Of a DNA stretch of 64,000 bases, positions 27,605 through 62,702 are shown piece after piece. The position numbers and the translations under genes are program-made. A model generated the notes under the pieces. The model searched no databases, was not told the origin of the DNA, and was given only the letters and a program-made list of their open reading frames with translations. How positions within the stretch are numbered: the first letter of the stretch is position 1; each line of letters starts with the position of its first letter. Origin of the DNA: Leptobrachium leishanense (taxonomy: Eukaryota > Chordata > Amphibia > Anura > Megophryidae). The stretch spans positions 350,262,942 to 350,326,941 of the forward strand of contig CM019063.1 in the NCBI GenBank assembly GCA_009667805.1. Reading direction: 5' to 3'.

Positions 27605-28289
27605 TGTAACCGGAATCTGACAGGTTCACTTTCAGGACGGCGCCGGACCGGACCGGACACAAGCAAGGATTGTCTGAACACGAGTCTCTTCAGGAAAGGC
27701 AAACTTTTTTGTGTCGTCACACAAATGCTCACGCAGGATTGAATCGCAAAGAGTGAGCCCCGTCCCCCCCCCCGACAAGGGGTTTTATACCCCAAATACA
27801 TAGTTAGGTACATCCCAATTAACCCACCTCCCGATGACACTTTATTCCACCCCACGTGGGTTAATACCTCCCATTGTTAGTACAAAGGAATTCCATACAT
27901 TGATCGTAAATTGGCAAGCTTCATGTTAGTCTGACAGTCTGTGATTTGCTGCTGCACTAAATCTGGGCCGTGCCCATCTCCCTAAAGGCTATGTTTATTT
28001 TGCTACAGATAAAGCATGTTCTGGTTTCTACGCTCTTCTTTGTCTTACTGCGGGTCTCAGTGACCTTGTAGTATCCATTTGTCATCCTGTCTTTCCGTGC
28101 CAAGAGTTAGCCGGATTTCTCTCAGTTTTATTGCTTCTCTGCTAATCTACCACATTCCTAAAATTCTATGCAAGCTTCATTCTAATGTCTAGTGAAATCT
28201 ATCTAGTTATTTGCAAGTGAACCAATATTCTGAACAAGATGGCCGCTTGGCTCATAATAGCGACCATCTTCCAGCCTGATTCCACTTCA
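27605..28289 (-). repeat. Provirus 1, 3' LTR
   Basis: This 685-bp repeat has TG...CA ends. In virus sense it starts TGAAGTGGAATC and ends GATTCCGGTTACA. A TATA box lies in the ggggttttatacccc block (27778-27792, complement). The poly(A) signal AATAAA present in the 5' LTR is changed to AAAAAA here (27704-27710). A 5-bp ccgga-type duplication distinguishes it from the 5' LTR. Confidence 0.95.
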
Positions 28290-28301
28290 TTCCCCCCTTG
28301 G
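28290..28301 (-). promoter_or_regulatory. Provirus 1 polypurine tract
   Basis: In virus sense ccaaggggggaa directly abuts the 3' LTR. It primes plus-strand DNA synthesis in retroviruses. Confidence 0.9.
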
Positions 28302-28345
28302 CTCAAGCCTCAGGTTCTTTTCCTGATGCTTGTAGCCATCACACC

Positions 28346-29030
28346 CCGACTCGACTATTGCAATAATCTCTTATCTGGCCTCCCTCTGTCCCGCCTCTCC
28401 CCCCTACAATCCATCCTGAACGCCTCCGCCAGGCTAATTCACCTCACCCGCTGCTCTGTCTCTGCCGCTCCCCTCTGCGAGTCCCTTCACTGGCTCCCCA
28501 TCCACTGCAGAATTAAGTTCAAAATCCTTATCCTTACCTACAAAACCCTCACTAACTCAGCGCCCCACTACCTGTCCTCACTAATCACCAGATACACCCC
28601 AGCCCGCTCCCTAAGGTCAAACAGTGACCTGCGCCTAGCTTCTCCCCGCATCACCTCTTCCCATGATAGACTGCAGGATTTCTCACGCGCAGCCCCCGCT
28701 CTCTGGAACGCTCTCCCTCGTACTGTCAGACTTTCCCCTAACTTCTCTTCCTTAAAACGATCCCTTAAAACATTCCTATTTAGGGAAGCCTACCACCCAA
28801 CTCACTGACACAACCATCAATCACTCTCACCTTACAGTCCTCTCCTCCTGTTTCCAACCCCAACCCTCCTAGATTGTGAGTTCCTATGGGAATAGGGCCC
28901 TCATCTCCTCCTGTACTGTTTGTCAAATGTTGTTCAATGTATTGTAACCCTGTCTATACTGTGCTTATTGTACAGCGCTGCGGAATATGCTGGCGCTTTA
29001 TAAATAAAGAATAATAATAATAATAATAAT
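28346..29030 (+). mobile_element. L2 LINE copy 2, inserted in env
   Basis: This 5'-truncated copy starts at ccgactcgactattgc, is nearly identical to 2377-3062, and ends in the same (AAT)n tail. It lies opposite to the provirus and removes or separates the end of env. No clean TSD is readable. Confidence 0.9.
28352..28808 (+). pseudogene. L2 ORF2 C-terminal fragment
   Basis: It encodes the C-terminal 150 or so residues of the same LINE polymerase as 2084-2836, starting at RLDYCNNLLSGLP and ending at the same stop. The longer open frame from 28239 includes retroviral LTR sequence before the junction and is chimeric by chance. Confidence 0.85.
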
Positions 29031-30834
29031 TCTTAAACTCCTCATACCTTAGGGGACCGATTTTTGTTGGGAACATGTCCTGTGGGATCATCAGTGGTAT
29101 CTTTTGTGTCTGTGTAGGTGTCAGTACTTTCTTGCACAGTGGCCATAGGCATAACCCTATGCGGTATGTCAGTGTTCCTACGACCAAGATCACCACTATC
29201 ATCAGAATCATGGATCCGATCTGTGAGATGAATCTCAGGATGGATCCAAACCACTCTCCAATTGCTCTGAACCCACGGAGTGGATTCCAGCCTTCAGCAG
29301 CGATTCTCCTTGCTGTGTTCTGCAGCTGTGCTACCTTCTCTTGGTGATCCTGGATTACCTGGTAATAGTCTGGGACATCATGTGTGGTGTTTCTGATGTA
29401 GGTGCAACATTCATAATGCATTGTCATTTCACACAATCCATTCAGGGCCGCACTGATCTGTTCAAGCGCCATGTCATGTATCATCTGCACCTTCCGTATC
29501 TCACGCACCTCCAGATTCAGCAACTGAATATCCATACTGGTTTTATTCAGAATTTCATCCATCAGATTGGCATAACTGTTCAGTCTCACCATCAACTCTC
29601 TTCCCCATCCAGTCCATGCCGGCAGCCACGACCATATCCGATCCACCTTTCTAAACAACTCTCTCTTCTGTCTCTCAAACATCAGTGGGTACCTAGGGTG
29701 GAGTGCTGTGTCTGTATTGGTGTCTTCTCCCCTTACCCTTTGAATCAGAATCAATTTTGCTAGATAGCACATTCCCGTTATTGTTGGTGGTACCCATGTG
29801 TAACACACCTTTCCACAACACACCTGGTATCCCCCTTTCAATATAAATGGAGACAAATGTAGTGTTCCCTTCGCTACTTCTATCATCAGTCGCCTCATTC
29901 GTCTCGTCGTATCCAGAACACCCTGCTTTCCATCAGACACCCCAGCAATCACTGCCTCTTGTTCACTCGTGAGCTTTCTACATTGTATGTATAGAAAATT
30001 TGCCTGCTCTTTTGTATCGATCGTGTAAATGTATGATGTCCAGTTAAACTTGCTTGAGTAGCACCCTCCATCCTCCTTATGTGTGTCTTTATCTGGTCCT
30101 ATTCGGAAGCACCACTCTGGTGGGTATACTGGTCCTATTATGGGATACCCGGGACTGAATGATTCTGTTTTTTCCCTTGGTGCATCAAAAGAGTGTATTG
30201 TGACATTCCCTGACGCAAACATACTCAGATTCATTGGAACAGAAGCAAATGGGATGTGGATCGTGTCTGGATGCATCCTACTACACACCCAGCACGCAGT
30301 TTGTCCAGACTTTTTAGCATAGTCATATTTAAATTGCACAAGTAAATGCCCTCTTGGCAAAATCTCAGATGTCGCTTCTCGTTTTTGTCTCCACATAGTA
30401 CGATTCTCCATCACTGGGTGCGTACCATTCCAGATATGGGAAATATCCACTTTTCCGGCAGTGCTTGGACACCTGGGGCAGGCTCCATGCGAGAGTCCAT
30501 AAATCAAGTTTGCAAGGTACAAAATCAGTACCACAAATGCCCCAAATGTCAAAATCCCTTGGGCAATTCTTTTCACAGTTACATACACCCAATCCCTCCC
30601 CACAGGTATTTCAAAAACAAAGGACATTTCTGGATGATCAGGGGTGGGGGCTGGGCCCCTAAAAAGCACCCTTGGGGTATCCCCCGTTGGTGGATGGTCA
30701 GGACTTGTGTCCATCAACACACCCACTTGTGGAATCATTTGGGTGTCTTCAGTTGGATCATTTAGGTGCTCACGGCTGTGGTCCTTGTCAGCTTTATCCT
30801 CAGCGGATTGGTCTCGTTGGCGACGACCTTCCAT
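29031..30834 (-). pseudogene. env: Provirus 1 env, open but cut at 3' end
   Basis: It starts at 30834, overlapping the end of pol (30762) in another frame. About 600 codons are open: a charged N-terminal tail of about 90 residues, a hydrophobic segment (about 95-115), a first RQKR site (about 150), a Cys-rich surface part, a second RQKR site (about 405), helices, a CEMTMHYECC motif and a C-terminal membrane span (about 565). RQKR sites fit furin cleavage. The Cys motif has seven residues before CC, against six in most gammaretroviruses. Env mediates fusion in this family. Here the L2 at 29030 interrupts the tail, and the apparent Tyr-rich end is L2 tail read-through. Confidence 0.88.
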
Positions 30835-32187
30835 GCTGGTTCAGGACTGGCTGCAGCTACTTTCAACCTGGAGTGATGTATCCACGGGACCACCTCGGCA
30901 ACCTTTACTGCTGTAGGGGTTGATAACAGGACAAGGTAAGGACCTCTCCACTTTGGGCCCAGTGGGTCATTTTTCCACTCTTTCACCCATACTGAATCAC
31001 CTGGACAATACTTGTGCAGTGGGGGATATAAAAAGTGAGGTATGTTATCTCCCACCCAAGTATTCAATTTCTGCATTGATTTACCCAACAGTATAACCTG
31101 ATCATTTAATTTAGTTTCTCCCAATGCCCGAAGGTCCCCCCTTAGTCCATTAATCAGAGGGGTAGGCCGTCCAAACATGAGTTCGTACGGACTTAGCTTT
31201 AATTGAGGGGTTGGCCTGCACCTAATGTGCATGAGGACTATCGGCAGCACATCCAACCAGCCTAGCGACGTCTCTTGGCACAATTTGGACATCAGAGTCT
31301 TTAGGGTACGGTTCATTCTCTCGACTTTTCCCGAGCTTTGGGGCCTGCCTGTAGGCAGTATGTAGCTTCCAGGTGATGCCCAACAGACGGGCAAGCTGTT
31401 GTAAACAGTTCTGTATGAATGCAGGGGCATTGTCCGACCCTATCTCGAGAGGCAACCCATAACGTGGTATTATTTCTTTCATCAGACATTTTACTACTTC
31501 CACAGTCTTTTAAGTTCTTGTTGGGAAAGCTTCCACCCATCCTGTCAGAGTACACACCATTACCAGTAGGTATTTGTATCCCTTGCAGGGCGGCAACACT
31601 GTAAAGTCTATTTGTAGCGATGCCATTGGGGATAGCCCGATTGGCTGTTTCCCTGGAGGTTGAGTTGGGCCTGTTCTTGGGTTGTTCTTGGCACATGTCA
31701 CACACTGCTGGGCTATTGCTTTGCAGATTACTGACAGTCCGGGTACATAAAAATGTGGCTCTTGTTGCTGTTCCATCATTTCTCTCCCTCCATGGGTACT
31801 TGCGTGTAGTGTTCTTACAATTTCAGGGGCCAATGTTGCTGGGAGGACTATTTGTCCATTCTTCAGCTGGAACCACCCGTCTTCTCCATATTCGCCTTGT
31901 TCTCCCGACATCCATTTCTTTTCTTTCTCTGAATACACAGGTGTCCATTCACTCAGTGGTGCCGGTAGGAGTGCAGCCACCACTGGTTTTGCTTTGTATC
32001 GTGCCAGTTCTCCATGGTTTCCCCAGATAAATTCTTCTTTTGGGAAATAGTATCGCCATGCGAAGAACAGCAGATCTTTTCTGGCTTGCGTATCTCTTAC
32101 TGCTGGTATGAAAAAGTCCATTGCACTTTTCTTCATTCTTGGCAGTTTGTTCTTGATAAGGATCTCCTTGAGGAAGAACCTTACCAA
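30762..32187 (-). pseudogene. pol: Provirus 1 integrase region of pol, frameshifted
   Basis: The blocks, right to left, are 32187-31510 and 31503-30762. The first holds the end of the captured OGFR-like domain, then the integrase N-terminal zinc site (LHASTHGG with CVTCAKN) and the first catalytic Asp (LQIDFTVLPP). After a stop at about 31508 the second Asp lies in GSDNAPAF. A frameshift follows; the catalytic Glu is in SSGKVERMN. The C-terminal GPKWRGPYLVLL with PWIHHSRLK is the GPY/F module typical of gamma-type integrases. Integrase inserts viral DNA. All catalytic residues survive, but not in one frame. Confidence 0.9.
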
Positions 32188-32615
32188 CGGGGCTTGGTAT
32201 TCTTCTGCTTTAGCTCTCCCAAACTTAGCAATATTCGTGTAATCCGTAGATTATTATGAGGGTTGACTGTCAAATTTTCAAAACGTGAGGCGAAATTTTC
32301 TGCTCGTTCAACTTCGGTTACTTTTGTGTTTTCTTCATCCTCCCCCATTACTTTTACGCCGAAGAATTTCAGCATCATCTTGTAAGCTCTGTGTAGTCTT
32401 TGCTGAACTTCTGAGGTGTTAATCATCAGGCGTGTCTCTTGCGGGTTCAGAGGAGTGGAATAGAAATTTCGGCCTTGAGTCTGAGTTGGGAAAAGCCATT
32501 GTATATAATCATGATTAAGTTCTAATAGTTCGTAATCATCTTTTCATTTGCATCAATTTTTATTCAATGAACGCTCGGGTTCAAATCTTCTCAAGTTCAT
32601 GTAGAATTCGTAGTT
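31993..32615 (-). pseudogene. OGFR-like conserved domain captured in pol
   Basis: Between RNase H and integrase lie about 207 codons not found in standard retroviral Pol. Motifs in order are NYEFYMN, DYELLELNHDYIQWLFP, VQQRLHRAYKMML, HNNLRITRIL, LVRFFLKEIL, FFAWRYYFP and ELARYK. This is the pattern and order of the opioid growth factor receptor conserved region (OGFR/OGFRL1), recognised from family knowledge. The block continues the RNase H frame, with two TGA stops near 32535-32550, and after a frameshift at about 32185 leads straight into integrase, so it once was part of Pol. It has no introns. Provirus 2 has the same domain at the same place. Its function in the virus is unknown. Confidence 0.88.
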
Positions 32616-33835
32616 TGGCATGGGAGGTTGAGGCTCTTGCTTGCAGAGTAGGACTTTGGCTTGATCAATTGTTAGCTGTGGTTTTGCAGCAGCTTTTGCG
32701 GCCTGGTCAGCGCGCCTGTTGCCTTTTGGGATTTCATCATGACCCTTTTGGTGGCCACGACAGTGCATGATACTGACAGCGCTTGGTTTCCATACAGCTT
32801 CTAGGAGGGCCGCGATTTCAGCTGCATACTTGATTTGTTGTCCTGAGGAAGTAAGCAGACCTCTCTCTTTGTAGAGTGCACCATGTGCATGGATGGTCAT
32901 GAAGGCATACTTGGAATCCGTGTAGATATTTACTCTTTTGCCTTCGGAAATTTCTAGAGCTCTGGTTAAAGCTGTTATTTCAGCCAGTTGTGCAGATGTA
33001 TGGCCTGGTAGTGGATTTGCTTCAATAATTTCTTCTTCTGAGACTACTGCATAGCCGGAGACTTTCTTCCCATCATCCATGTAACTGCTACCATCAGTGA
33101 ATAACTGTAGATCGTATTTGTCTAGGGGTACGTCTTTCAAATCTGGCCTGCTACTGAACACTTCTTCCATGACTTGGAGGCATTCGTGATCTGGATCCTC
33201 TTCGCAGTCAGGCAGTAAAGTAGCAGGGTTCAAGGTAGCGATGAGGTCCAAATGAACCCGTGGGTTTTCACACATCATGGCTTGGTACTTCGTCATCCGG
33301 CTGTTGCTGAACCAGTAGTTTCCTTTCACATCCAGCAGGGCCTTGACAGCATGGGGCACTTTGACGTGAAGAACTTGTCCAAGGGTCAGCTTGTCTGCTT
33401 CTGCTATCAGCATTGCGGTGGCTGCCACTGCTTTCAGACATGGGGTAGGCCACAAGCCACAGGGTTGAGTTGCTTGGAGAGGTAGGCCACAGGCCTTAGC
33501 CAAGAGCCAAAACTTTGGATCAATACTCCTGTTGCTGTTTGATTGTGTTCATGCACGTACAGCTGGAAGGGCTTGCTGTGATCTGGCAGTCCCAGTGCAG
33601 GAGCTTCCATTAGCAGAGTCTTTAATTTCAGGAACGCTGCGGTTTGCTCTTCTTCCCAATGGAAAGGGTCTTGTTCTCCCCCTTGGTGGCTTGATGAAGG
33701 GCTTGGCAATATCTGCGAAGTTGGGGATCCACAGGCGGCAGAAGCCTGCAGCTCCCAGAAACTCACGGACTTGTCTTCTGGTCTTTGGTTGGGGTATTCG
33801 GCATACTGCTTCTTTTCTTTCTGCCCCCAATGCAC
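32553..33835 (-). pseudogene. pol: Provirus 1 RT connection and RNase H
   Basis: The blocks are 33835-33434 and 33503-32553, separated by a frameshift near 33440. The first carries RT thumb/connection sequence (FLKLKTLLMEAPALGLPD). The second contains RNase H with LQLFTDGSSYM (first Asp), the Glu of LAEITALTRALE, YTDSKYAF and the final HRGHQKGHDEIPKGN. RNase H removes the RNA strand in reverse transcription. The catalytic residues look intact. The frame then enters the captured domain. Confidence 0.9.
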
Positions 33836-35175
33836 GTTTGGTACCTGTTAACTGGAATCCCAGGTATTTTACACTTTCTTTGCATATTTGTGCTTTCTTT
33901 CTAGAAACTCTGTAACCTGCTTGGCACAGTAGATGTAGCAGGGCTTTTGTAGCAGATAAACAGTCTTTTTCTGTGGGGGAAGCTAGTAATAAATCATCAA
34001 CATATTGGAGTAACACAACTTTGTCTGGCTGAGCGTTGAAGGCGAGGAGATCCTGGCTGAGCGCGCATCCGAAGATCGTGGGTGAATTTTTGAAACCTTG
34101 AGGGAGGCGTGTCCAGGTCATTTGATGGCGCGCCCCCGTGGTGGATTCTTCCCACTGAAATGCAAAAAGGGGCTGGCTTGCAGGAGCCAGACGGATGCAA
34201 GAGAAAGCATCTTTTAAATCAAGCACTGTGTAATATTTTGTATCTCTGGGAATTAACGCCAGCAAATTGTATGGATTGGGAACCACAGGGTGTAGGGTTA
34301 CTGTGGCTTCATTGACAGCTCGTAAATCTTGGACCGGGCGGTACTCTTGTGTGCCCTCTTTCAGTACTGGTAACAGGGGTGTGTTCCATGGTGACACGCA
34401 GAATTTTAATATGCCATGATCTTTAAGTCTCTGTAAATGCGTTTGAATATTCTGCTTGGCTTTTTGTGGGATATGATATTGTCTTAAAGCCACAGGCGTT
34501 GCACCAGGTTTTAAATCGACGTATACTGGGGGGATGTTCACAGCTAGTCCGGGCGGATTTTCCTCCGCCCACACCCCAGGAATTTCAAGGAGTAGTGTGT
34601 ATGGGTCCGGGCTTGCCGGCGGCATTGGTGCTGTACGCCATTCTTCCTCCCTTGGCATAATTACTACAATTTTCACAGATCTGGAGTGCTGGCTGGCTGG
34701 GCTATACTGCCGAGCAGAGCTGCCACTCTCAGGCAGGTCTAGTTGAGCGTGTCCCCCGGGAAGAAACGTAATTTGGGCTTGCAATATGCAAAGGATATCC
34801 CGCCCCAGGAGTTGGATGGGACATTTGGGCATATACAAAAATTCATGTTCTACATTATGCCCACCCACACTACATTTTCGAGAAGCAAGGAAGGGGTACT
34901 TAGCAGACACCCCCATTGCTCCCATAATATCAACTTCATTGCCCATTTGGGGAGCAATTTGCTGTGTTACAACAGAATATTCGGCACCAGTGTCAACCAC
35001 AAAAATGTCATCTTTATTTCCCACTCTCATAGTGACTGTGGGCTTGTGGTTACCGAGCGGGATGGGCCCAGGTCCTTGTCAATATGCATCCTGCCCCTCA
35101 AATGACGTTCCCGCCAATCCCACAAACCCTGCTCCGGCACCCTCATTTCTCTCATATCTGCCGTCTGTTACCTGA
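33549..35175 (-). pseudogene. pol: Provirus 1 protease and reverse transcriptase
   Basis: Open from about 35030 to 33549 (493 codons). The aspartic protease has FVVDTGAEYSVV at about residue 12 and a second conserved LLGRDIL at about 74. RT follows with YTVLDLKDAF (motif A), LPQGFKNSPTIF (motif B) and QYVDDLLLAS (motif C, catalytic YVDD intact). A frameshift at about 33695 moves the frame to the 33835-33434 block. Upstream, 35079-35175 is the nucleocapsid-protease junction, cut from the rest of gag by the PLE at 35192. Confidence 0.92.
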
Positions 35176-35191
35176 CCATTGGGGCCTTGAC

Positions 35192-35390
35192 AATACCAAA
35201 AGAGTGTGAAAATGTATCCCCAGGAGGTATAAAAACTGCAGTTCACAGCACTCTCCACCAACGTGCTAAGGTATAAACATATAAGAAAAATAGAACATGC
35301 AGTACAATACAACCTTATAGATGGTCAGGTACTTTTGATGATACAGGATCTTCAAGGTGCATAGACTCTAAAATAAGAGCATACACAAAA
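35192..35390 (-). repeat. PLE pseudo-LTR, 3' copy
   Basis: It is nearly identical to 39859-40060; the other copy has a 3-bp insertion near its end. It starts aataccaaaagagtgtgaaa and ends gagcatacacaaaa. Confidence 0.9.
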
Positions 35391-35755
35391 CATAGCATAA
35401 TACTGCCAGATATTTAATAAAACATAAAACCACAAAAAGAAGCCACTCACAAAATTAGTGGCACACAATGAATGAAAGTGTGCATAAGCGCATATTAGGC
35501 CGATTCGTTCAAATAGTCACCACAGCCGGAAAGACGTTGTCCTTAAAGTGTAGTCTCTGCGGGAGAGCCTGGCCAGGATACCACTCCGTGCTGAGAAGTC
35601 CAACTATCAGGTGGAACCAAAGTCCTTCAGACCAACCAATTAGGGGAACCGAAGACCTGGACCCATCCGAAATGAATAGTGGACGATCCGACTCGTGGAC
35701 GAAGATGAATGATGGACGATCCGGCGGGCGAACGAATGAAATGGCGGAAACAAGC

Positions 35756-35803
35756 AAGTCAGTTCGACGCGTTTCGTCCTCTGACTTATTCATGAACTGA
35801 CTT
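35756..35803 (-). ncRNA. Degenerate PLE hammerhead
   Basis: On the minus strand stem I aagtcagttc/gaactgactt is perfect. GTC/GAC forms a short stem II, followed by GAAA, the palindrome acgcgt and a TC site. The CTGATGA box has decayed to a catgaat-like sequence, so it is probably inactive. Its layout matches the motifs at 15483, 17757 and 25046. Confidence 0.65.
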
Positions 35804-36388
35804 GTCCGTCCGAATCTTCTCTCTTTTAAAGTCCACATTTCTTTAATTGCAACCTAAAATGCATTCATGTGTGGATACCGGAAACGGTGAAATCTCCCGA
35901 AATGCCCCCGAACGAGCGCATCGAAAATGCGCCCGAAAGGGCGCATCGGAAGTGACACCGCCTTACACCAGAATCCATTATGGTTAAGGGCATAATTAAC
36001 CCAAACCTAATGGAGAGTGTGGGCGAGATACATAGGGCAAAAATTAACCTAAAAACATTGAAAACATGATATTACTAACATAGATCCAGAGATGACAATG
36101 GAAGAACCTATGGAGACAAAAATTAAAAACGTGCATGTATGCTGATATCGTATATACATGAAATTCCCCATGAAGGGGATATAGCTAAAATTATAATGAT
36201 TTAGGTAATTAATAATATTTTTATATAAAACCAATAATATGTTCCAAAAAAGCACCAGAAAAATAGCAGAAAGAACTAAGAATACAAAAACCACAACCGA
36301 AGAAAAAACTAACTAAATCCCAAAAAGCTCTACAGGAAAACCGCTGGGGGTCGCGTAACCCTAAGTAAAAACAGTAAAAATGGGGCCA

Positions 36389-36740
36389 TTATATAAACGA
36401 TTGGAGCTCTAAATCAATATTAAGGCCCGGCGGTTTCAAAGTGTCCATGTAAAATATCCACTTTGTTTCTGCTAAAGAAAGGGCCTTAGCAACATCACCA
36501 CCCCTCCAGTCCACCCCTCTAGTTTTGTTTAACTTTTTCAATACCCAACCAGACAAAAGTGGAAAAACTGAAACTAGAGCACTTACAACAGTGTCTGGGT
36601 ACACTATGCTTGTCGCTACGCTTTCTAATGTTGTAAAAATGCTCATAAATGTGTTCTTTTAGTTTTCTTTTTGTTTTCCCAATATATTGGGCCCCACAGC
36701 CACATAGGAAGTAAATAAACTACATTGGTGGTATTGCAAT
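36389..36740 (-). pseudogene. PLE GIY-YIG endonuclease, frameshifted
   Basis: After a frameshift near 36710 the GIY-YIG domain continues, ending in WRGGDVAKALSLAETKWIF and LKPPGLN. This corresponds to the same region of the PLE at 16235-16790 (WRGGDLDLILAKEERRFIF). The GIY part (NVVYLL) falls in the upstream frame, and the YIG region spans the frameshift. Confidence 0.8.
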
Positions 36741-38328
36741 TAATAAATTCTTTAATGTGATATTCCTTTCCTGTTCTCGTGCTTTTGAATGAAACCACTT
36801 TCGTTTTTAGCTCTCTACACATCGAGCAAGTTCTACACTTAAAGAAACCTTTTGGCTTATCAAGCAGAGGGTGAATTATATTGTCCATACTTTCATTTTT
36901 ATTTTGATTAGAAGGTAAGGCACTTGGGGCCAATGTATTTTTAACTGTATTTGCTCTTCTATAGATGACACAAGGAAAGGCCGGTAGGTGTTTAGACAAA
37001 GTTGGATCGTTTTGAAGAATGGGCCAACATTTAGAAAGGGCTAACTCTATATCTCTACTTCTACCATTAAATTTGGTGAAGAAAGCAAGATCCCACTTAG
37101 TGGGATCTTTTGACTTTCCCAAATTTCTTTGAAAGAAAGTTGATCTATCTAGATCTACGATATCCTTCAAGCTTTTATCTACTAGAGGTTTAGGGTATTG
37201 TTTAAGAAGAAATTTTTCCGAAAGCTCTCTACTTTGGGTGATGAAGTCTTGCATTTCCGTGCAGTTACGTCGAATGCGTCCAAACTGATTTTTAGGTATA
37301 TTTTGAAGCCACTTTTTGTGGTGGCAACTATTGTAGTTTATATAGGAATTCTTATCGGTGGGTTTGAAAAAAGTCCTAGTGCAAAATTTTTTATCCTTAA
37401 TAAAAATATTCAAATCCAGAAAGTTAAGGGTCTCATTACCCACCTCCATGGTGAATCTAAGGTCAAAAGTATTAGTATTTACAAAATCAAAAAAAACCCT
37501 AAGGTCATCCCTGTTACCATCCCAAATCAGTAAGACGTCATCAATATAACGTCGCCAGAGTGCCAAGTTTGCCCTATATGGATTGTTGTCCCAAATGGCC
37601 TGCTGCTCCCAATGGGCAACAAAGATGTTAGCGTATCCCGGGGCAAACTTGGCACCCATTGCTGTTCCTGTCTTCTGAAGATAAAATTTATTCTGAAACC
37701 CAAAAAAGTTATGAGTAAGACAAAAACGTATAGCCTCACCCAAAAACACCCTCTGTTCACTCTCAATGATAGAGTCCTCCTCTATTCTTTTATCTATAGC
37801 CAACAGGCCTTTCTCGTGTTGTATAACTGTGTATAGAGATGTCACATCCATACTCACTAAAATATAAGTCTCTTTCCACTCTAGACTTTGAAGAATCTCC
37901 ATAAGATGTCCTGAGTCTTTAATATAAGACGGAGCCAATGGAACATATTTTTGTAAAAAGCTATCAATAAATTCTGATAGATTGGCTGTCAGAGACCCAA
38001 TTCCGCTAATTATAGGACAACCCGGGGGGGATACTATGGATTTATGGATTTTTGGATTATGATAGAATATGGCCAATCTTGGGAATGGGGTATATAAAAA
38101 GTTAAACTCATCCTTAGTCAGTATGCCTTGAGACAAACCTCCATTAAGCAATATTCCCATCTGTTCCAGAAATTCTTTGGTGGGATTGTGTTTAAGTAAT
38201 TGGTATGTCACTTCGTCTGACAAGACTCTCTCAGCTTCTTTTAGGTAGTCTATCTTGTCTTGAATTACCACCCCCCCCTCCCTTGTCGGCTTGCCTAAAC
38301 ACCAGGTCATGTTTGGCTTGAAGTCCAT
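36643..38328 (-). pseudogene. PLE reverse transcriptase
   Basis: This open frame of about 540 codons has the RT motifs of Penelope-like elements. In order: PGCPIISGIGSLTANLSEF (about residue 98), VSMDVTSLYT (motif A, about 155), GTAMGAKFAPGYAN (about 225), RRYIDDVLLIW (motif C, about 265), LNFLDLNIF (about 305) and the linker CRTCSMC (about 505). PLE RT is related to telomerase and copies RNA at a nicked target. The true N-terminus lies upstream in other frames: 38558-38791 with LLNKGLKFAPT, and 38231-38425 with RQADKGG. The last shift is in an 8-C run at about 38270. Confidence 0.92.
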
Positions 38329-38557
38329 TCAGAGCCTCCCTCTCCTTCCTATCTAAATTAAACTGAATTCGTTTTTTATTTTGGTTCTTTTTTATATTGA
38401 ACTTTCTAAATTCTTCTTCTAACATATCCCCAAAAACCTTTTATGTTATTGGTCTTCTCCCAAATCGGGTAGAAACTAGACTTACATTTGAATTTGGTGT
38501 GGAAAAATTCCTTTTGTTGTGTATCAGTCTCCGATAAAGAGGGCATATCAATTGACG

Positions 38558-38791
38558 TCATTGAATTCGTCGATTCTCCTTTTTTATAAAAAAAAATTTA
38601 ATTGCCAATTTCCTCAAAAATCTTTGTAGATCTAAGAAGAGGGTGAACTCATTAGGTACCTTGGTGGGGGCAAATTTTAGACCCTTATTTAATAGAGATA
38701 TTTCTGATCTGTTTAGATTTACATGAAACAAGTTAAAAATACCCAGTTGGAGTTCCCTTTCTTTAGAGGTGGGGTCTTGATTTAGGTTCAA
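38558..38791 (-). pseudogene. PLE RT N-terminal segment
   Basis: It contains EISLLNKGLKFAPTKV, the conserved start of PLE reverse transcriptases. It begins just after the stop ending the ORF1-like frame and is separated from the main RT frame by at least two frameshifts. Confidence 0.78.
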
Positions 38792-39832
38792 TTAGTTGTC
38801 CTGCCTTCTTCTCTTGAATGGGGAGAACATTTCCCGTAAGGGAGAGTATCTGTTTCGGTCTTGCCAAAAACCCCTTTTTGAGGTGCTTTTGGGGGGTCCT
38901 TGGCCTAAAAAACCTTTCTTCATTTGCTCTGAAGTTTTGTCTCTATGCTGGCTATATCTATTTTCTGGATTTTGGTTCTGACCATTCCATTGTCTTCTTT
39001 CATTTCTATAGGGGTATGTTTTCCCACCATACCCAGCCTGTAGGTGAGAATTATATTGATGCTGTTCTTGTTCATTTGGGTCCCATTTATTGGAAGTATG
39101 GATTTCTTTTTTTGTTTTTAAAGTTTTTGATTGCCAAATGTTTTTTCTATCATTAAGAATATTCATATTGTTTATTTTAGAGGGGCGGAAGTTAGTATAA
39201 TCTCTATTTTCTATTCTGGGATCCCTTTTACGTGAACGTGACCTTGGGTAACCTCTGTTTAAATTAACCAGGAAAGGTTTACCATAAGTGTAGTCTATTT
39301 TATCTCTAGACATTTTTTTCTTCTTATTCTCTACTATTGTCTCATCTAGTTTCTCAATCTTTATTTGTAATTCTACATTCTTTACTTGTATAATCTCATC
39401 CTCAAAATTCTTATCGATATCCTCTTCTAGAATCTTTGTTTCAATTTCTATACTTTTCATGGTGTCATTATGTAAATTAATCAAAAGCTCCATTAAATGG
39501 AATGAACACTCCTCCAGGATGTCAGACCATTTACCCATAAATTCTTTGTTGTCAAGTCCAAAGGCTGGTGTTTTTTGAATCCTCAAACCTCTAGGGACAA
39601 TGCGTGTTTTTAGATATTGTTCTAAAAAAACAATTTCCCACCATTTTTTAACTTCTTTTTCAGCCAATCTCTCCAGTTTAACAAACAACAGAGAGGGCTG
39701 AGTGGGTGCACAATGCCCCACTTGACTAGAATTATCTGCAAAAATAATGTCCAGACGTCGTTTTCTGGACTCTCTGAGATTTGCCGTCATCAATCTACAA
39801 TAAGCCATGGTAGGATCAAAAGGGAAATGCAC
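38792..39832 (-). CDS. PLE ORF1-like protein, 346 aa
   Basis: This intact frame precedes the reverse transcriptase. The N-terminal half is helical, with a charged likely coiled coil around residues 120-190 (many Glu, Lys, Ile and Leu). The C-terminal half is basic and rich in Arg, Asn, Gln and Tyr (about 195-346), suitable for RNA binding. No named domain is recognised. Some PLEs carry such an upstream protein or N-terminal extension, probably for packaging their RNA (inference). The stop at 38792 is directly followed by RT-type sequence, so it might originally have been one polyprotein. Confidence 0.7.
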   Translation of the reverse strand: MHFPFDPTMAYCRLMTANLRESRKRRLDIIFADNSSQVGHCAPTQPSLLFVKLERLAEKEVKKWWEIVFLEQYLKTRIVPRGLRIQKTPAFGLDNKEFMGKWSDILEECSFHLMELLINLHNDTMKSIEIETKILEEDIDKNFEDEIIQVKNVELQIKIEKLDETIVENKKKKMSRDKIDYTYGKPFLVNLNRGYPRSRSRKRDPRIENRDYTNFRPSKINNMNILNDRKNIWQSKTLKTKKEIHTSNKWDPNEQEQHQYNSHLQAGYGGKTYPYRNERRQWNGQNQNPENRYSQHRDKTSEQMKKGFLGQGPPKSTSKRGFWQDRNRYSPLREMFSPFKRRRQDN

Positions 39833-39858
39833 TCCACAGCGGAGAAAAACGTATCAAC

Positions 39859-40060
39859 AATACCAAAAGAGTGTGAAAATGTATCCCCAGGAGGTATAAA
39901 AACTGCAGTTCACAGCACTCTCCACCAACGTGCTAAGGTATAAACATATAAGAAAAATAGAACATGCAGTACAATACAACCTTATAGATGGTCAGGTACT
40001 TTTGATGATACAGGATCTTCAAGGAAGTGCATAGACTCTAAAATAAGAGCATACACAAAA
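39859..40060 (-). repeat. PLE pseudo-LTR, 5' copy
   Basis: This is the direct repeat of 35192-35390. Nine further bases (40061-40069) separate it from the right TSD copy. Confidence 0.9.
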
Positions 40061-40085
40061 CCCATTGGCCCATTGGGGCCTTGAC

Positions 40086-41770
40086 CTCCCGATTCCCCAA
40101 CCTCTCCTTGTCCCCCAAATTTAGCCAAAAATGTAGGACAGTCGTTTTTCCAGTGACCTTCACCCGCCACCACGCGCACTGGTTGGGTCCCAGGGGTTCC
40201 CTCGGGGCTCCCCTACCTCTTCCTCTAGCCCCCCTACCCCTTGCTCTCCCTCTGTCCGGGCCACCTTGTCCTCCACCATTTCCCATATAACCCACAACAC
40301 CTGTGTGTCCTCTCTGTCTCTTTATCTCCTCCCGTTTTTCTTCTAAATCCCGGTTATGATACACTTTATTAGCAATCTCTACCAATTCGCTAATACCTTT
40401 ACCCAAAAACCCATCTAATCTCTGTATTTTATTCCGTATATCCCTCTGTGACTGTCCCACAAAAGAAGAATTAATTAACCTCTGATTCTCCGCTGCCTCC
40501 GGATCAATAGGACTATACATCCTATATGCATCTAGTAATCTTTCCAGAAATGCGCTTGGAGACTCTTTAGATTCTTGTACCACATCCGCTATTTTTCCCA
40601 TGTTTGTGGGTTTCTTCCCTCCCGCTTTAACACCCATTATTACTGCTGTTCTGTACGTCTGGAGGTGGGCAAACCCTCAGCGGTGCTATACGGCCACTTG
40701 GGATCTGTTTTGGGGTAGTGTTCCTCTGCCCACGCTTCTGGCTGGGGCTTAGCATCTGCTACAGCTTGGGCAAGTAAAATCTTTTGCGCGCTACTATTTA
40801 TCCGGGCTCTTTCTTCTGTGGTAAACATTGTCAACATTAATTACTGACAATCTGCCCATGTGGGGTTATGTGTAAGCATAACTGACTCTATCATACTGGC
40901 CACTGCTGCGGGATTAGTGGAGTACAGTGGTGTGTGTGTTTTCCAGTTAAAAAGATCTGTTGTCGTGAATGGGACATATGTGTATTGCACTGGCCCAGGA
41001 GCTCCATTTGCCAGTAAAGGACCTGGCACTTCTCGCAGGGGCATTTGATAGGGATTGTGCTGATATGGCTCACGGGGTTTATGTATATTCGCTGCGCGAG
41101 TGGTAACCCCTCGTTTCTCATCTTCACCCTCATTATCGCTATCCTCCTGGGCTACTAATTTGTATACACTCCCATCGGGCATTTCAATTTTCCCCGGTGG
41201 GGCCTCTCTGTCTCCTCCACCCGCCGCCCCCTGTTCTTCCTCCACAACCCCGCGTGACGGAGCAAAGGGAGCCGGCCGGGAAGTAGCAGCTGCCTGCTCC
41301 CCCCTCTCCGCCCGCACAATCGCGGCACTCAAAGCTTCTCTAGCCGCCCCGTAACATGGCGGGGGCAAGGAGTCACCTTCCTCTGGGTGTTCTACCAACA
41401 CTGATCTCTCTTTCTCTTTATTATTTGGGGGTACCTCCTTCTTGTGTTGTCCTGCCAACATGATAAAATGACTTTTATCTTTTACACAGTATCTCCATAT
41501 ATCTATATACGGGTACTGTTCAGGATGTCCGCATTTCCCGGTGACTTGGGAATGCACTCTCTGTATTAGCTCGGGGTCCATTGACCCCTGCTCTGGCCAT
41601 TCAGAAACTAACAGTGGCCACACAATTGTACACATTAATGTCAGCTTCTCCCTAGTTAATTCCACACCATAGTCATGCGTTGTATATAACGCTTCAAAAT
41701 TCCGCACCATATACTCTAAGGGCGTCTCACCCTTCTTTACCTTACTGGGTTTGGATGACCCGTTACCCAT
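40086..41770 (-). pseudogene. gag: Provirus 1 gag, one stop and frameshifts
   Basis: It starts at 41770 with MGNGSSK, a myristoylation-type N-terminus for membrane targeting. The matrix-like part and a Pro/Glu-rich linker run to 40841, where a TAA stop interrupts; provirus 2 has Gln at this place. The capsid continues at 40640-40837 and, after a frameshift, at 40086-40637 with the major-homology-like stretch around ESPSAFLERLLDAYRMY. An RGRGARGRGRG-rich segment precedes a nucleocapsid finger in which the second Cys is lost and the frame shifts again. The PLE at 40069 separates the end. Gag forms the particle shell in this family. Confidence 0.88.
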
Positions 41771-42865
41771 TGTTACTTTTCTCAGAAAATCAGTAAACTC
41801 TTACAACACAGATATTACTTTTTAGCAATGACAATTAGAATCTACAGTCTGGTACTTCAGCCAACAATTCTTGCGTGTCTGACCCGCTTCCTCTGTCAGT
41901 AGCCGACTGCAGTCGCCTGAGCCGGAACCGTACTTTGGGAGTCCACTTTCAAGTTTGCTTCCTCGCAATGCGAGTAGGCGCGCGTTCACTCACAGCATTC
42001 AAATCAATTCACTCACAGCACATACTGTACCAGATACTTTCAGCACATAACAGAACATAAACACTCCAACTCTTTCTACTAGCCGAGGGTGCTCTGTCCC
42101 TCCTTTTGGCTCCTTGTTCCCCGTAAATTAAACTCTAACTCTTGACTGCTTGTGTCTATGTGCACCCCGTTCTATAACTATACTCCCGTCTGCAATTCCA
42201 ATTTGCCTATGGATAATCTACCCACCCGGCACCACTATCTATGCAGCTACCGCTGGCTTCAATAAGCCCTCTTCACTACACGACGTACACACTAGCACTG
42301 ACTCAGGGCTCTAAGCCCAGTCACAGAAATCCCTCCTCCTTTCCTTCAATCCACGTGGCGAAGCTCTATTTACAAACACTGACTATGACTATGCAACTCC
42401 ACGTGGCTACCTTCTCCCTCTCTTACAGAACTACCCTTTAGTTGGCATCCAATTCCCCCGAATCCAGACACGCGCTAGCCACTCTGGCTCCTTTGCATTG
42501 TCCGTGCTATCAGCGGCGGGCTAGGTATGTCAACGAGACTGTGGCCAGCGGGTCTCCTTATCCGACCATCAGTCAGACGTTTCCCTTTATACCGGTATCT
42601 CCTTTAGACATACAAACATGAAAGACACTTTACCTATCGCCGGCGCTGCTCACTGTTTCCTCAGACTCGATGGTGTCCCAGGTTCCTGGGCCGGGAGTCC
42701 GTTTGGGACGAGACGAGGTCCACTGAACAGGAAATCCTGCTTGGCGCCTGCAGATGTCAGCTCACCTTCAACGGACGCCCAACCGACGGGATCACTTGCA
42801 CCTGCAGTCAACCGCTACAGTGTTCAGCAGTTGCCTATGCCGGAAAGGGCGAGTATCCCAGCTAT
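41771..42865 (-). other. Provirus 1 leader between PBS and gag
   Basis: This is about 1.1 kb of non-coding leader, where packaging and splice-donor signals are expected. Its right part (42640-42865) resembles the provirus 2 leader at 62740-62960. No ORF is supported. Confidence 0.7.
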
Positions 42866-42875
42866 CGAGCCCCCA
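42866..42875 (-). promoter_or_regulatory. Provirus 1 primer-binding site, tRNA-Pro-like
   Basis: In virus sense tggggGCTCG lies 5 nt after the LTR. It matches the first ten bases of the proline tRNA site used by gammaretroviruses; the next bases diverge (atagctggg). Confidence 0.7.
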
Positions 42876-42880
42876 AGAAA

Positions 42881-43561
42881 TGTAACCGGAATCTGACAGG
42901 TTCACTTTCAGGACGGCGCCGGACCGGACACAAGCAAGGATTGTCTGAACACGAGTCTCTTCAGGAAAGGCAAACTTTATTGTGTCGTCACACAAATGCT
43001 CACACAGGATTGAATCGCAAAGAGTGAGCCCCGTCTCCCCCCCCCGACAAGGGGTTTTATACCCCAAATACATAATTCGGTACATCCCAATTAACCCACC
43101 TCCCGATGACACTTTATTCCACCCCACGTGGGTTAATACCTCCCATTGTTAGTACAAAGGAATTCCATACATTGATCGTAAATTGGCAAGCTTCATGTTA
43201 GTCTGACAGTTTGTGATTTGCTGCTGCACTAAATCTGGGCCGTGCCCACCTCTCTAAAGGCTATGTTTATTTTGCTACAGATAAAGCATGTTCTGGTTTC
43301 TACGCTCTTCTTTGTCTTACTGCGGGTCTCAGTGACCTTGTAGTATCCATTTGTCATCCTGTCTTTCCGTGCCAAGAGTTGGCCGGATTTCTCTCAGTTT
43401 TATTGCTTCTCTGCTAATCTACCACATTCCTAAAATTCTATGCAAGCTTCATTCTAATGTCTAGTGAAATCTATCTAGTTATTTGCAAGTGAACCAATAT
43501 TCTGAACAAGATGGCCGCTTGGCTCATAATAGCGACCATCTTCCAGTCTGATTCCACTTCA
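42881..43561 (-). repeat. Provirus 1, 5' LTR
   Basis: This 681-bp repeat has TG...CA ends. The poly(A) signal (complement of tttatt, 42976-42981) is intact, and the TATA block lies at about 43053-43065. By my hand count it has about ten substitutions against the 3' LTR. Confidence 0.95.
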
Positions 43562-51720: not shown

Positions 51721-52531
51721 TTATGCAGATATAGCTCTCTTTAGCTTTAGTGGATTGGACTCGTCAGTCACAGCTTTCCACTGGAACTCAGGTATAGCTG
51801 CTGTGGATTTCAACCTTGAATGGTGTATCCATGGAACTATCTCGGCCACCTTCACTGCTGTGGGAGTGAATAACAGAACAAGATAAGGACCCCTCCATTT
51901 TGGGCCTAATGGGTCAACTTTCCACTCCTTCCCCCATACCGAATCACCTGGACAATACTTATACAGTGATGGATACAAAAAATGAGGTAAATTATCACCA
52001 ACCCAGGTATTCAATTTCTGCATTGCTTGACCCAACAATAACACTTGTTCATTCAGTTTGGTTTCACCTATTGCCCGAAGGTCCCCCCTTAGCTCATTAA
52101 TTAGAGGAGTAGGCCGCCCAAACAAGAGTTCGTACGGACTTAGTTTCAATTGGGGGGTTGCATCTAAAATGCAACAGGACTATCGGCAGCACCTCTAGTC
52201 ATCCCAGTGATGTCTCTTGGCATATTTTGGCCATCAAAGTCTTTAGAGTTCTGCTCATTCGCTCAACTTTTCTGGAACTCTGAGGTCTGTAGGCTTTATG
52301 CAGCTTCCACGTGATACCCAGCAGGCGGGCAAGTTGTTGTAGGCAAACTTGAACCAAAGCAGGACCATTATCTGATCCTATCTCAAGTGGCAGTCCATAG
52401 CGGGGGATAATTTCTCTCATGAGGCATCTCACTACTTCTACTCACTACTTCTACTGTCTTTTCATTTCTGGTTGGAAAGGCCTCAACCCATTCAGGAAGT
52501 GTGCACACCATCACCAGTAGATACTTGTATC
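51721..52531 (-). pseudogene. pol: Provirus 2 integrase, second part
   Basis: It resumes left of the hAT. GSDNGPALVQ holds the second catalytic Asp and RKVERMSRTL the Glu (52199-52432). After a frameshift, 51721-52149 holds the C-terminal GPKWRGPYLVLL module and the end of pol. A 15-bp cactacttctactca-type duplication at about 52430-52458 is a local error. Confidence 0.85.
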
Positions 52532-54719: not shown

Positions 54720-55131
54720 GGTGGAAGAACTGTAAAGTCTATCTGTAAGGACGCCATTTCGGACAATCCAATTGGTTGCATTCCTGGAGGTTGTGATGGG
54801 CCTGACTTTGGGTTATTCTTAGCATAGGTCACACACTGTTGGGCTATTGTCTTACAAATGACGGAGAGTCCAGAAACATAAAAATGTGGTTCTAACTGTT
54901 GCTCCATCATTTCTTTTCCTCCATGGGTACTGGCATGAAAGTTTCTGACAATTTCGGGCGCCAATGTAGCGGGGAGAACAATCTGATTGCTGGTCAACTG
55001 GAACCATCCTTCTCCATATTTGCCTGGTTCTTCAGAAAGCCATTTCTTCTCCTTTTCTGAATACACAGGTATCCATTCACTCAATGGAACTGGTAATAGC
55101 GGAGCTATTATAGAGTACGGGTCATGTACTT
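54720..55131 (-). pseudogene. pol: Provirus 2 integrase, first part
   Basis: It contains the N-terminal zinc module with FHASTHGG, but the CVTCAKN site reads CVTYAKN, so one zinc-binding Cys is lost. The first catalytic Asp is present in LQIDFTVLPP. It then runs into the hAT at 54711; anything read beyond is transposon sequence. Confidence 0.88.
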
Positions 55132-55621
55132 TTAAAGTTCTTCTTGGTTTCCCCAAGTGAATTCTTCTCTTGGGTGGTAGTTTAACCATGTGAAGTAGAG
55201 CAGATCTTGCTGTTCTTGTTTGTTCTTTACAGCAAACAGAAAATAGTTTAATGCACTGCTCTTCATAATTAACAGGCGTTTTTCAATAAGTATTTCTTTC
55301 GGGAAGAATTTCACTAATGGCGCTTGATACTTTTCAGCTCCCAATTCTAGGCAGTGCAGAATACGGGTGATTCTCAGATTATTGTGGGTATTGGATATCA
55401 GATTCTCGAATCTTGTGGAGAAATTGTCTGCTCGTTCAACTTCAGCTCCTTCTTCATCCTCCCCCACTAATTTTACACCGGAGAAGTTCAGCATCATCTG
55501 GTAGGCCCGAAGGAGCCTTTGCTGAATTTATGAGGTTTTTCCATTGTCGGGAAAAGCCATTGGGTAGAATTATGGTTCTTCTCCAGCAATTCATAGTTAT
55601 CATGCCATCTATTGAGTATTA
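55132..55621 (-). pseudogene. Provirus 2 OGFR-like domain, main part
   Basis: Read right to left: DNYELLEKNH and QWLFP; after a small deletion and frameshift, RLLRAYQMML-type sequence; then NNLRITRILHCLELG, QAPLVKFF, SSALNYFLFAV and LLYFTWLNYHPREEF. This is the same domain as 31993-32615 and again matches the OGFR conserved region. Some positions look closer to OGFR than in provirus 1 (for example QAPLV). Its N-terminal piece is at 55952-56010, beyond a 314-bp insertion. Confidence 0.87.
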
Positions 55622-55935: not shown

Positions 55936-57308
55936 CATCTATTGAGTATTACCTCAATATATTCTCCATTCGGATCGAATCTTCTCCTGTTCATGTAGAA
56001 TTCGTAATTTGGAGAATTTTCTGGATCTAACTCGTCCGCGTTGCATGTCGTCAGACAGGACATCATTTTGGTTGGTTGCAGCTGGTCTAAAGTTTCATCT
56101 TCAATAGCGACCAATTTTGCCGCTGTTTTTGCAGCTTGGTCAGTCATTCTGTTACCTTTTGGAATTTCGTAATTTCCCTTCTGGTGTCCTCTGCAATGCA
56201 TAATACTGACAGCACTTGGCTTCCATACTGTATCCAATATCTCTAATATCTTATCTGAGTACTTGACTTGTTTCCCAGAAGAAGATAGTAGTCCTCTTTC
56301 TTTGTACAAAGCGCCATGCGCATGAACAGTCATGAAGGCATATTTGGAATCCATATAGATATTTACGCTCTTGTTTGCAGCCAATTCCAGGGCCCTTCTT
56401 AAAGCAATGATCTCTGATAGTTGTGCTGACGTACTGTGAGATAAAGGCCTTGCTTCCAGAATTTCCTGCATAGTAACAACTGCGTAACCGGATAATCTTT
56501 TGCCATTTTCCATGTAACTGCTGCCATCACTGAAAAGTTGTAGATTGTATTTGTCTAGGGGTACATCTCGTAAATCAGGCCTGCTGCTGAACACTTCTTC
56601 CATGACCTGAAGAAATTCATGACTTAGATCTTCTTCAGAATCTGGTAGCAAAGTAGCAGGATTCAAAGTTGCAATGAGGTCCAAATGAACACGTGGATTT
56701 TCACACATCATGGCTTGATACTTAGTCATCCAGCTATTGCTGAACCAATAGCTTCCTTTAACATCTAGCAAGGCTTTAACTGCGTGCGGGACTTTGACGT
56801 GCAGAACTTGTCCCAGGGTTAACTTGTCAGCTTCGGATATCAGCATTGCTGTAGCAGCCACTGCTCCCAGACATGGGGGTAGGCCGCAGGTCACTGGATC
56901 GAGCTGTTTGGACAGGTAGGCCACAGGCCTTGGCCATGACTCTAGTTGTTGGATAAGGACACAAGTGGCAGTGTGGTTGTGTTCATGAACATAAAGCTGA
57001 AAGGGTTTGCTGTGATCAGGTAGGCCCAAGGTTGGGGCCTCCATCAACAAAGTCTTTAGCTTCAAGAAAGCTGCTGTCTGTTTTTTTCCCCAGAGGAATG
57101 GGTCATGCTCACCCCCCTTGGTAGCTTGGTGGAGGGGTTTTGCAATTTCAGCAAAGTTGGGAATCCACAGACGACAAAATCCTGCAGCACCTAGGAATTC
57201 ACGGACCTGTCTGCGTGTCTTTGGTTGAGGAATACGGCAGACTGCTTCTTTGCGTTCAGGCCCTAATGCTCTCTTGGTACCTGTTAATTGAAAACCGAGA
57301 TATTTCAC
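55936..57308 (-). pseudogene. pol: Provirus 2 RT connection, RNase H, start of OGFR-like domain
   Basis: This open frame of about 457 codons holds the RT thumb/connection (FLGAAGFCRLWIPNF), then RNase H (LQLFSDGSSYM, SEIIALRRALE, YMDSKYAF, HRGHQKGNYEIPKGN). It continues without a stop into NYEFYMNRRRFDPNGEYIEV, the first OGFR-like block. So the captured domain is joined in frame to RNase H here. The frame then enters the 314-bp insertion. Confidence 0.9.
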
Positions 57309-57819
57309 TTTGTTTCCAAATCTGGGCTTTCTTTCTAGATACTTTGTAGCCCGCTTGGCACAGTAATTGTAGAAGGGCTTTAGTTGTGGTCAGCCAGTCT
57401 TTTTCTGTGGGTGCGGCAAGCAATAGCTCATCGACATACTGTAGCAATACAACTTTGTCTGGCTGAGAGTTGATGGATAGGAGATCCTGGCTGAGGGCGC
57501 AGCCAAAGATAGTGGGCGAGTTTTTAAAACCTTGGGGGAGGCGTGTCCAGGTCATTTGGTGTTGCGCCCCAGTCTTAGAATCTTCCCACTGAAATGCAAA
57601 AATGGGCTGGCTTGCAGGGGCCAGACGAATGCAAAAAAAGGAGTCTTTAAAATCAAGCAGAGTGTAGCATTTTTTATTTCTGGGAATCAGCGCCAGTAGA
57701 TTGTACGGATTGGGGACAACGAGGTGCAAAGTTACGGTTGCTTCATTAGCTACTCTTAAGTCCTGTACTGTCCTTCTTTCTGCACTGGCAATAATGGTGT
57801 ATTCCATGGTGACACACAA
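57256..57819 (-). pseudogene. pol: Provirus 2 RT core, YVDE mutant
   Basis: RT motifs A (LLDFKDSF) and B (LPQGFKNSPTIF) are kept. Motif C reads QYVDELLLA: the second catalytic Asp is Glu. A frameshift near 57760 separates it from protease/RT start, and another near 57290 from the RNase H frame. Confidence 0.88.
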
Positions 57820-58440
57820 AACTTCAATATACCATGGTCTTTTAGTCTTTGTAAATGAGTCTGTATATTTTGCTTTGCCTTCTGCGGAATATGGTATTGT
57901 CTTAAGGCAACTGGCACAGCTCCCGGTTTTAATTCTACGTACACTGGTGGGATATTTACAGGTAGTCCTGACGGACTATCCTCTGCCCACACTTCTGGAC
58001 TGCCAAGTAGTAGTGCGTATGGGTCTGGGGCAACCGCAGTAGGTGGTATTGATCTCCACTCTTCTTCCCTTGGCATTACAAGAGCAATTTTACTGGGGTG
58101 CGAATCTGAGATAGCTAAACAGTGCTGCCGAGTAGAGCTACCACTCTTGGGTAGGTCTAATTTAACATGACCCCCGGGGAGAAATGTAATTTGGGCTTGC
58201 AATTTGCTCAGCAGGACTTGGCCGAGGAGCTGGATAGGACATACAGGCATATACAAAAATTGATGCTCAACATAATGACACACTCTGGACACAAGGAAAG
58301 GATATGTAGCAGAAAACCCCCAATGCACCGGTTATGTCGGCCTCTCCTCCCGACGGAGGTGCGATTGCTTGTGTTACAACAGAATACTCTGTCCCAGTAT
58401 CGATCATAAAAATCTCATCATCACCCCCGACTCTCTAATG
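57756..58440 (-). pseudogene. pol: Provirus 2 protease and RT start
   Basis: The protease active site IDTGTEYSVV lies at about 58385-58420, separated by a frameshift from the main frame (58328-57756). That frame carries the rest of protease and the RT N-terminus (LRQYHIPQKAKQNIQ). Confidence 0.85.

Positions 58441-61085: not shown

Positions 61086-62702
<1,617 letters not shown>

Follow-up and report, generated by a model that had tools for sequence, protein, structure and literature searches.

A retroviral Pol polyprotein that carries a receptor-type domain between RNase H and integrase is encoded in the stretch of the Leptobrachium leishanense genome analyzed here, which comprises 64,000 nucleotides of contig CM019063.1 (positions 350,262,942 to 350,326,941 of the forward strand) and is referred to below as the window. 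The element, provirus A, is a gamma-type endogenous retrovirus (ERV), and the extra domain belongs to the OGFr_N family (PF04664), the conserved region of the opioid growth factor receptor (OGFR) and its relative OGFRL1. We are highly confident that this domain was captured and has been put to constrained use in Pol. The wider reading, that a single capture from the OGFR family yielded a domain that would be freed by the viral protease, packaged, and used as an OGFR mimic early in infection, appears to us moderately probable when taken as a whole.

The original prediction, made from the nucleotide sequence alone, had proposed an OGFR-like segment at 31993..32615 that is recognizable by five motifs (NHDYIQWLFP, RLHRAYKMML, HNNLRITRIL, LVRFFLKEIL, and FFAWRYYFP). 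These motifs are present in the proposed order, on the minus strand, which the prediction had left unstated, and its limits were exact, since in the translated open reading frame (ORF) pieces the first residues, NYEFYM, start at position 32615 and the final ones, ARYK, finish at 31993. The family assignment was borne out by a Pfam search, in which PF04664 matched two ORF pieces of copy A, window:32184-32543:- with 130.6 bits (E 7.3e-38, profile positions 33-141 of 208) and window:31513-32250:- with 70.1 bits (E 2.5e-19, profile positions 135-204), scores that are far beyond chance. The curated OGFr_N cut-off is 22 bits. An RNase_H match (E 1.4e-27) lies directly upstream of OGFr, and the second ORF runs stop-free from the end of OGFr through Integrase_H2C2 (E 4.4e-9) into the start of rve, the latter with an E-value of 0.00091 that is under the curated rve cut-off. 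The proposed position between RNase H and the integrase zinc domain, and the continuity of the reading frame, therefore hold: RNase H and the start and middle of OGFr share one frame, the end of OGFr and integrase share another, and both junctions are in-frame, the shift falling within OGFr. Copy A itself is a fossil, its OGFr being interrupted by at least two in-frame stops and this one frameshift. Alignment of the OGFr stretch to the profile revealed no gap of intron length. The N-terminal region and the long C-terminal tail of host OGFR are absent between RNase H and integrase, where only the core is present, indicating that pol contains a captured domain and not an OGFR gene.

A tblastn search of the window with two pieces of copy A detected a second OGFr-integrase stretch at 55601-54710 on the minus strand, which is part of another retrovirus, provirus B. 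Its OGFr_N match (window:55135-55527:-) reached 152.3 bits (E 1.6e-44, profile positions 78-205). At the DNA level, proviruses A and B are 72-77% identical over three aligned pol blocks, and both have the order RNase H, OGFr (about 207 codons), integrase. Since a second, diverged provirus carries the module, it is not private to one insertion.

Two database searches combined yielded at least 35 distinct predicted Leptobrachium proteins with the module, and OGFr_N was confirmed by Pfam in all 17 of these that were scanned. Entries with a full name are from L. leishanense (taxid 445787), the remaining ones being readable to genus. When the OGFr-integrase piece was used as query, 25 proteins were retrieved at E ≤1e-3 among 594 candidates, 17 of them Leptobrachium proteins with OGFr_N and 8 integrase-type proteins without it. 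The OGFr part of predicted protein P0106 gave 490 matches among 1077 candidates, and the survey covered the best 120 of these, with proteins of up to about 696 residues. Among these 120, 34 were from Leptobrachium, of which 20 had precomputed RNase H or integrase domains; such domains were present in none of the other 86 of the 120 listed, 8 of which carry no species name. Examples of predicted proteins that span OGFr and neighboring Pol domains are P0132, which represents 12 sequences and is 91% identical to a copy A piece over 120 columns, P0106, with OGFr_N at residues 51-259 (profile positions 3-206 of 208, 243.4 bits) and Integrase_H2C2 at residues 315-370, and P0136, in which RNase H, OGFr, the zinc domain, and the integrase core all occur in one protein. 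In P0111, RNase_H is followed by OGFr_N, and P0161 represents five sequences. Two relatives lack the domain and have a short linker from RNase H to integrase instead: P0119, from an environmental contig and beginning in the RNase H tail, and P0120, a bat gene model. In P0117, OGFr is followed by repeated DLLSQVPVK units, which probably reflect an artefact of the gene model, and the catfish OGFRL1 prediction P0143 (Clarias magur) contains two OGFr segments in tandem.

OGFr is flanked by two hydrophobic patches (Table 1) that are conserved in an alignment of 10 viral proteins (A4), including a diverged long-linker lineage. Upstream, LLC is nearly invariant in this alignment, and downstream, the V, LLP, and P columns are invariant; the linker of P0119 reads VAALIP, corresponding to the VVAALLPAP or similar sequence that follows OGFr in the viral OGFr proteins. 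The RNase H-OGFr linker measures 22-29 residues in five proteins of lineages I and II, and 82 (P0178) and 117 (P0163) residues in two proteins of lineage III, a branch of the tree described below; the long linkers are partly repeat-like. A structure model is confident for the OGFr domain and for the MLV (murine leukemia virus)-type integrase N-terminal domain after it. Structural alignment of this model to MLV integrase predicts that integrase begins around residue 270 of P0106, beyond the predicted OGFr end at about residue 262 and within the conserved hydrophobic patch, which fits cleavage between OGFr and integrase. The viral protease would probably free OGFr at the two hydrophobic linkers, with a predicted product of about 27 kDa, and we slightly favor release as a protein of its own or as a tail of reverse transcriptase over retention as a tail of integrase. 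In an unlikely alternative, OGFr would remain attached to integrase or RNase H and, as a kind of targeting module, tether the pre-integration complex to chromatin or the nuclear envelope. OGFr does adjoin integrase, and host OGFR has been reported at the outer nuclear membrane, from where it moves into the nucleus (PMC10377280), but the modeled integrase start beyond the end of OGFr argues against such a tether, as does, although this is weak evidence, the structure comparison, in which no chromatin or nucleic-acid binding fold was recognized for OGFr.

The comparison across copies that the original prediction had suggested gave dN/dS ratios below 1. Codon counting between copies A and B, performed piece by piece with bootstrapping, resulted in a dN/dS of 0.19 for the OGFr middle (bootstrap 0.06-0.40, 64 codons), and for the OGFr end in a pN of 0.223 and a pS of 0.771 with saturated synonymous sites (68 codons), the bootstrap range of dN/dS being 0.06-0.28 from the 236 of 500 resamples in which it was defined. 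The neighboring regions gave 0.098 (reverse transcriptase), 0.096 (RNase H), 0.058 (integrase), and 0.111 (integrase C-terminus), all of these A-B values being obtained with dS near saturation and including post-insertion decay. Purifying selection on OGFr between A and B is thus real but weaker than on the Pol enzymes. Residue conservation was compared between 28 viral rows and 23 hosts, the match being 0.82 over 76 conserved columns, 0.62 over 29 intermediate columns, and 0.24 over 102 variable columns. When 30 bacterial or metagenome proteins were included in the comparison, the 31 columns conserved in both hosts and bacteria matched at 0.90 in lineages I and II and 0.91 in lineage III; over 63 columns that vary among hosts, the corresponding values were 0.19 and 0.20. 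Polar residues kept in viral OGFr include H91, Q95, H176, N177, R180, and R183, and the exceptions to this retention of residues common to animals and bacteria include A109, Y141, and, in part, I184. These data bear on the idea that OGFr is a folded spacer, tolerated at a permissive site in Pol without a dedicated function. The lower constraint on OGFr than on reverse transcriptase, RNase H, and integrase would suit a spacer, and so would the upstream linker, whose length in seven measured proteins varies between 22 and 117 residues. However, a dN/dS well under 1 and the retention, at 0.90 in both viral lineages, of residues shared by hosts and bacteria, polar ones included, make this quite improbable; the 25 matches to the OGFr-integrase query also included no Leptobrachium integrase without OGFr, which is a weak test, as this query was keyed on both domains.

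To place the viral domain among its relatives, a tree was built from 59 rows (25 Leptobrachium proteins, both window copies, 26 host sequences, 1 environmental animal-like sequence, and 5 bacterial or bacterial-type sequences). All 27 viral rows formed one clade with a support of 98/100, separate from the host OGFR and OGFRL1 sequences that were included, which is consistent with a single capture followed by deep diversification. Within this clade, lineage III separates at 100/100, and the placement of copy B is not firm (97/79). The tree does not settle from which host branch the viral clade arose. Compared with these host proteins, the viral form covers nearly the full PF04664 profile (3-206 of 208 in P0106) and is 45-52% identical to the OGFRs of Pelobates, Discoglossus, human, and Xenopus, but it consists of the conserved core, fused into Pol without the host N-terminal part and C-terminal tail. 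It is likely that OGFr_N in pol was captured once from the vertebrate OGFR family, presumably by way of a transcript. OGFr_N also occurs in bacteria and in Marseillevirus LCMAC202, whose opioid growth factor receptor-like protein (A0A481YX38) was the sole match at E ≤0.001 in a library of predicted viral structures (E 1.5e-6 to the OGFr fold), although this is a stand-alone 186-residue protein of a giant DNA virus and not a Pol domain. Derivation of the pol domain from bacteria or a giant virus is nevertheless very improbable in view of the identity to the four vertebrate OGFRs, the position of the five bacterial rows outside on a 100/100 branch (for which the tree program warns of long branches), and the retention of N62, P68, E116, Y134, and G189, animal residues that are rare in bacteria. 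The chance that a processed OGFR pseudogene landed in one old provirus after endogenization is negligible, for although the stretch has no introns and copy A is broken by stops, the module occurs in two proviruses with 72-77% pol identity and in 35 proteins, with junctions alike in those compared, and the viral rows form one clade with low dN/dS. A later, private pseudogene insertion, the case that the original prediction had named as its refutation, is ruled out by the shared copies with conserved junctions.

The position of OGFr has a counterpart in the dUTPase of non-primate lentiviruses, which is described as a proteolytic product of Gag-Pol located between RNase H and integrase (PMC4531489). 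In both cases a domain of cellular type occupies this slot of Pol, but the domain found here is the unrelated OGFr_N, which comprises about 207 codons and is carried by a gamma-type virus with an MLV-type integrase. No dUTPase domain was matched in general Pfam scans of copy A, copy B, and the database proteins, so the OGFr insert may work like the lentiviral dUTPase but is not a member of that family. To our knowledge, no enzyme activity is known for OGFr_N. From these data we infer that OGFr, once freed, would be packaged together with reverse transcriptase and integrase, be delivered into the newly infected cell, and mimic host OGFR there in the early phase of infection. Its favored role would be to relieve the growth block imposed by opioid growth factor (OGF) and OGFR, or to exploit the nuclear-envelope location of OGFR. 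Gamma-type retroviruses need dividing cells, and it is this need, together with the dUTPase slot and the location and growth-slowing activity of OGFR, that makes us favor a virion-delivered mimic. Host OGFR has been reported in the outer nuclear membrane and the nucleus, and to slow proliferation, in cancer cells via p16 and p21 (PMC10377280). Mimicry of OGFR by the viral domain is possible, yet we propose it only tentatively, and somewhat more doubtful is the specific scenario in which released and packaged OGFr overrides or hijacks the OGF-OGFR brake at the nuclear envelope, and thereby allows a virus that depends on dividing cells to infect resting ones. A second case of a parasite using OGFr_N is MiISE6, an effector of root-knot nematodes that is reported to contain part of OGFr_N and to enter host nuclei (PMC5876317). 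Like the viral domain, it is a parasite protein with OGFr_N sequence, acting in host cells, but according to its description, on which the likeness is based, it is secreted, has a signal peptide and a nuclear localization signal (NLS), and carries OGFr_N only at residues 35-62 (PMC5876317).

Several observations weigh against the proposed explanation. The nuclear entry of MiISE6 is ascribed to NLS motifs outside OGFr_N (PMC5876317), and no solved fold stood out when the OGFr domain was compared with known structures. The 40 columns conserved in hosts but not in bacteria match at only 0.71 and 0.81 in the two viral lineages, and this poorer retention of animal-only columns speaks against close mimicry of the receptor surface. 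In addition, 12 residues that are invariant in hosts are altered in most viral rows (L57, L100, E102, A109, Y141, G156, K186, L222, D223, Y224, F227, and P256), and approximately the final 15 positions of the profile are missing from lineage III OGFr. When lineages I/II are compared with lineage III, OGFr is 51-59% identical, RNase H 63-70%, and integrase 69-78%; OGFr thus diverges faster than its neighbors, which again indicates that the constraint is real but weaker. The near-saturated dS and the post-insertion decay mentioned above add to these points, and the evidence beyond the window comes from one frog and automatic gene models.

The coordinates of the features of both proviruses are listed in Table 1. 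Provirus A has the hallmarks of a class I ERV, with Gag MA and p30, MLV-type integrase domains, a 4-bp target duplication, and long terminal repeats (LTRs) of the TG...CA type. The LTRs differ by 9 substitutions and 6 gap columns over 680 aligned positions, and the direct repeat GAAG flanks the element on both sides. The stretch after the 5' LTR resembles what we take to be a proline tRNA primer site. In common with class I ERVs are Gag_MA, Gag_p30, RVP, RVT, RNase H, the N- and C-terminal domains of an MLV-type integrase, and the 4-bp duplication; provirus A differs by the additional OGFr_N in Pol and by the ORF in the env position, which has neither a Pfam match nor a CX6CC motif and is a candidate env by its position. 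The element nested in provirus A (35190-40061) has near-identical ends of 205 bp (98.5%), a weak RVT_1 match at 36646-38328 on the minus strand, and, close to either end, a direct repeat of about 16 bp.

Table 1. Positions of the main features of proviruses A and B in the window.
Feature	Position	Strand	Basis or remark
OGFr_N domain in provirus A pol, interrupted by stops and a frameshift	31993..32615	minus	PF04664 on two ORF pieces
KVLLC patch in the RNase H-OGFr linker, candidate protease site	32643..32657	minus	LLC conservation in alignment A4
VVAALLPAPLS patch between OGFr and integrase, candidate protease site	31951..31983	minus	Columns of alignment A4
Provirus A, gamma-type ERV with later nested insert at about 35190-40061	27605..43561	minus	LTR pair, repeat, Pfam domains
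5' LTR of A	42881..43561	minus	681 bp
gag of A, two ORF pieces	40041..41800	minus	Gag_p30 E 3.3e-28 and 1.6e-11, Gag_MA E 3.7e-10
Protease and reverse transcriptase of A	33552..35078	minus	RVP E 2.2e-13, RVT_1 E 9.6e-30
RNase H of A	32685..33110	minus	PF00075 E 1.4e-27
Integrase zinc-binding domain of A	31675..31842	minus	PF17921 E 4.4e-9
Integrase C-terminal domain of A, MLV type	30855..31016	minus	PF18697 (MLVIN_C) E 9.1e-18
ORF of 628 residues in the env position of A	28957..30840	minus	Hydrophobic stretch near residue 537, 7 N-glycosylation motifs
3' LTR of A	27605..28289	minus	685 bp, adjoins purine-rich tract
OGFr_N domain in pol of provirus B, broken	55141..55601	minus	PF04664; N-terminal part by tblastn
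gag of B	59060..60076	minus	Gag_p30 E 1.3e-24
Reverse transcriptase of B	57259..57975	minus	RVT_1 E 2.5e-21
RNase H of B	56118..56543	minus	PF00075 E 5.5e-23
Integrase zinc-binding domain of B	54809..54973	minus	PF17921 E 4.5e-7
Integrase C-terminal domain of B	51808..51960	minus	PF18697 E 3.8e-15

The integrase part of provirus B contains about 19 copies of a 40-bp tandem repeat (52593-53353), and a Tc1/mariner-like transposase ORF (HTH_Tnp_Tc3_2, DDE_3) is located upstream of its gag (61433-62314, minus strand). Elsewhere in the window, 2373-3056 is 97.8% identical to the 3' end region of provirus A (28345-29030), which points to a third close relative, and 44158-44905 is a more distant relative with about 82% identity to 2129-2868. 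Two inverted arms of 1.6 kb that are 98.5% identical and separated by a short gap lie at 14882-18409, and remnants of a hAT-type transposase (BED zinc finger and hAT dimerization domain) at 9095-11707 on the minus strand.

The original prediction knew of no published case, and we likewise found no report of OGFr in retroviruses among the papers listed for this topic, for captured domains, and for neighboring topics in one open-access library, subscription papers and preprints being outside the scope of this search. The main text of the L. leishanense genome paper, which gives a high LTR content of 17.5%, contains neither "opioid" nor "OGFR" (PMC6895153), and these words are also absent from a survey of invading vertebrate retroviruses that names the species in a figure legend (PMC10435555). 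The capture of a cellular domain within Pol has been seen before, and what is new, as far as could be seen, is the OGFr domain and this lineage. We know of few host-domain captures inside retroviral Pol, dUTPase being the well-known case.

The OGFr domain was retained under selection while the viruses split into lineages that are now about 55% identical in this domain. Many of these Leptobrachium proteins are labeled in UniRef as OGFr conserved domain-containing proteins, and some caution is warranted, as OGFR-like genes predicted in frog genomes can be of retroviral origin. The function of the OGFr core that animals and bacteria have in common becomes testable, a virus that carries the core alone being a natural minimal version. 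If the domain is indeed released, packaged, and used to hijack OGFR, it would represent a new class of retroviral accessory function that is built into Pol and has been kept through deep diversification.
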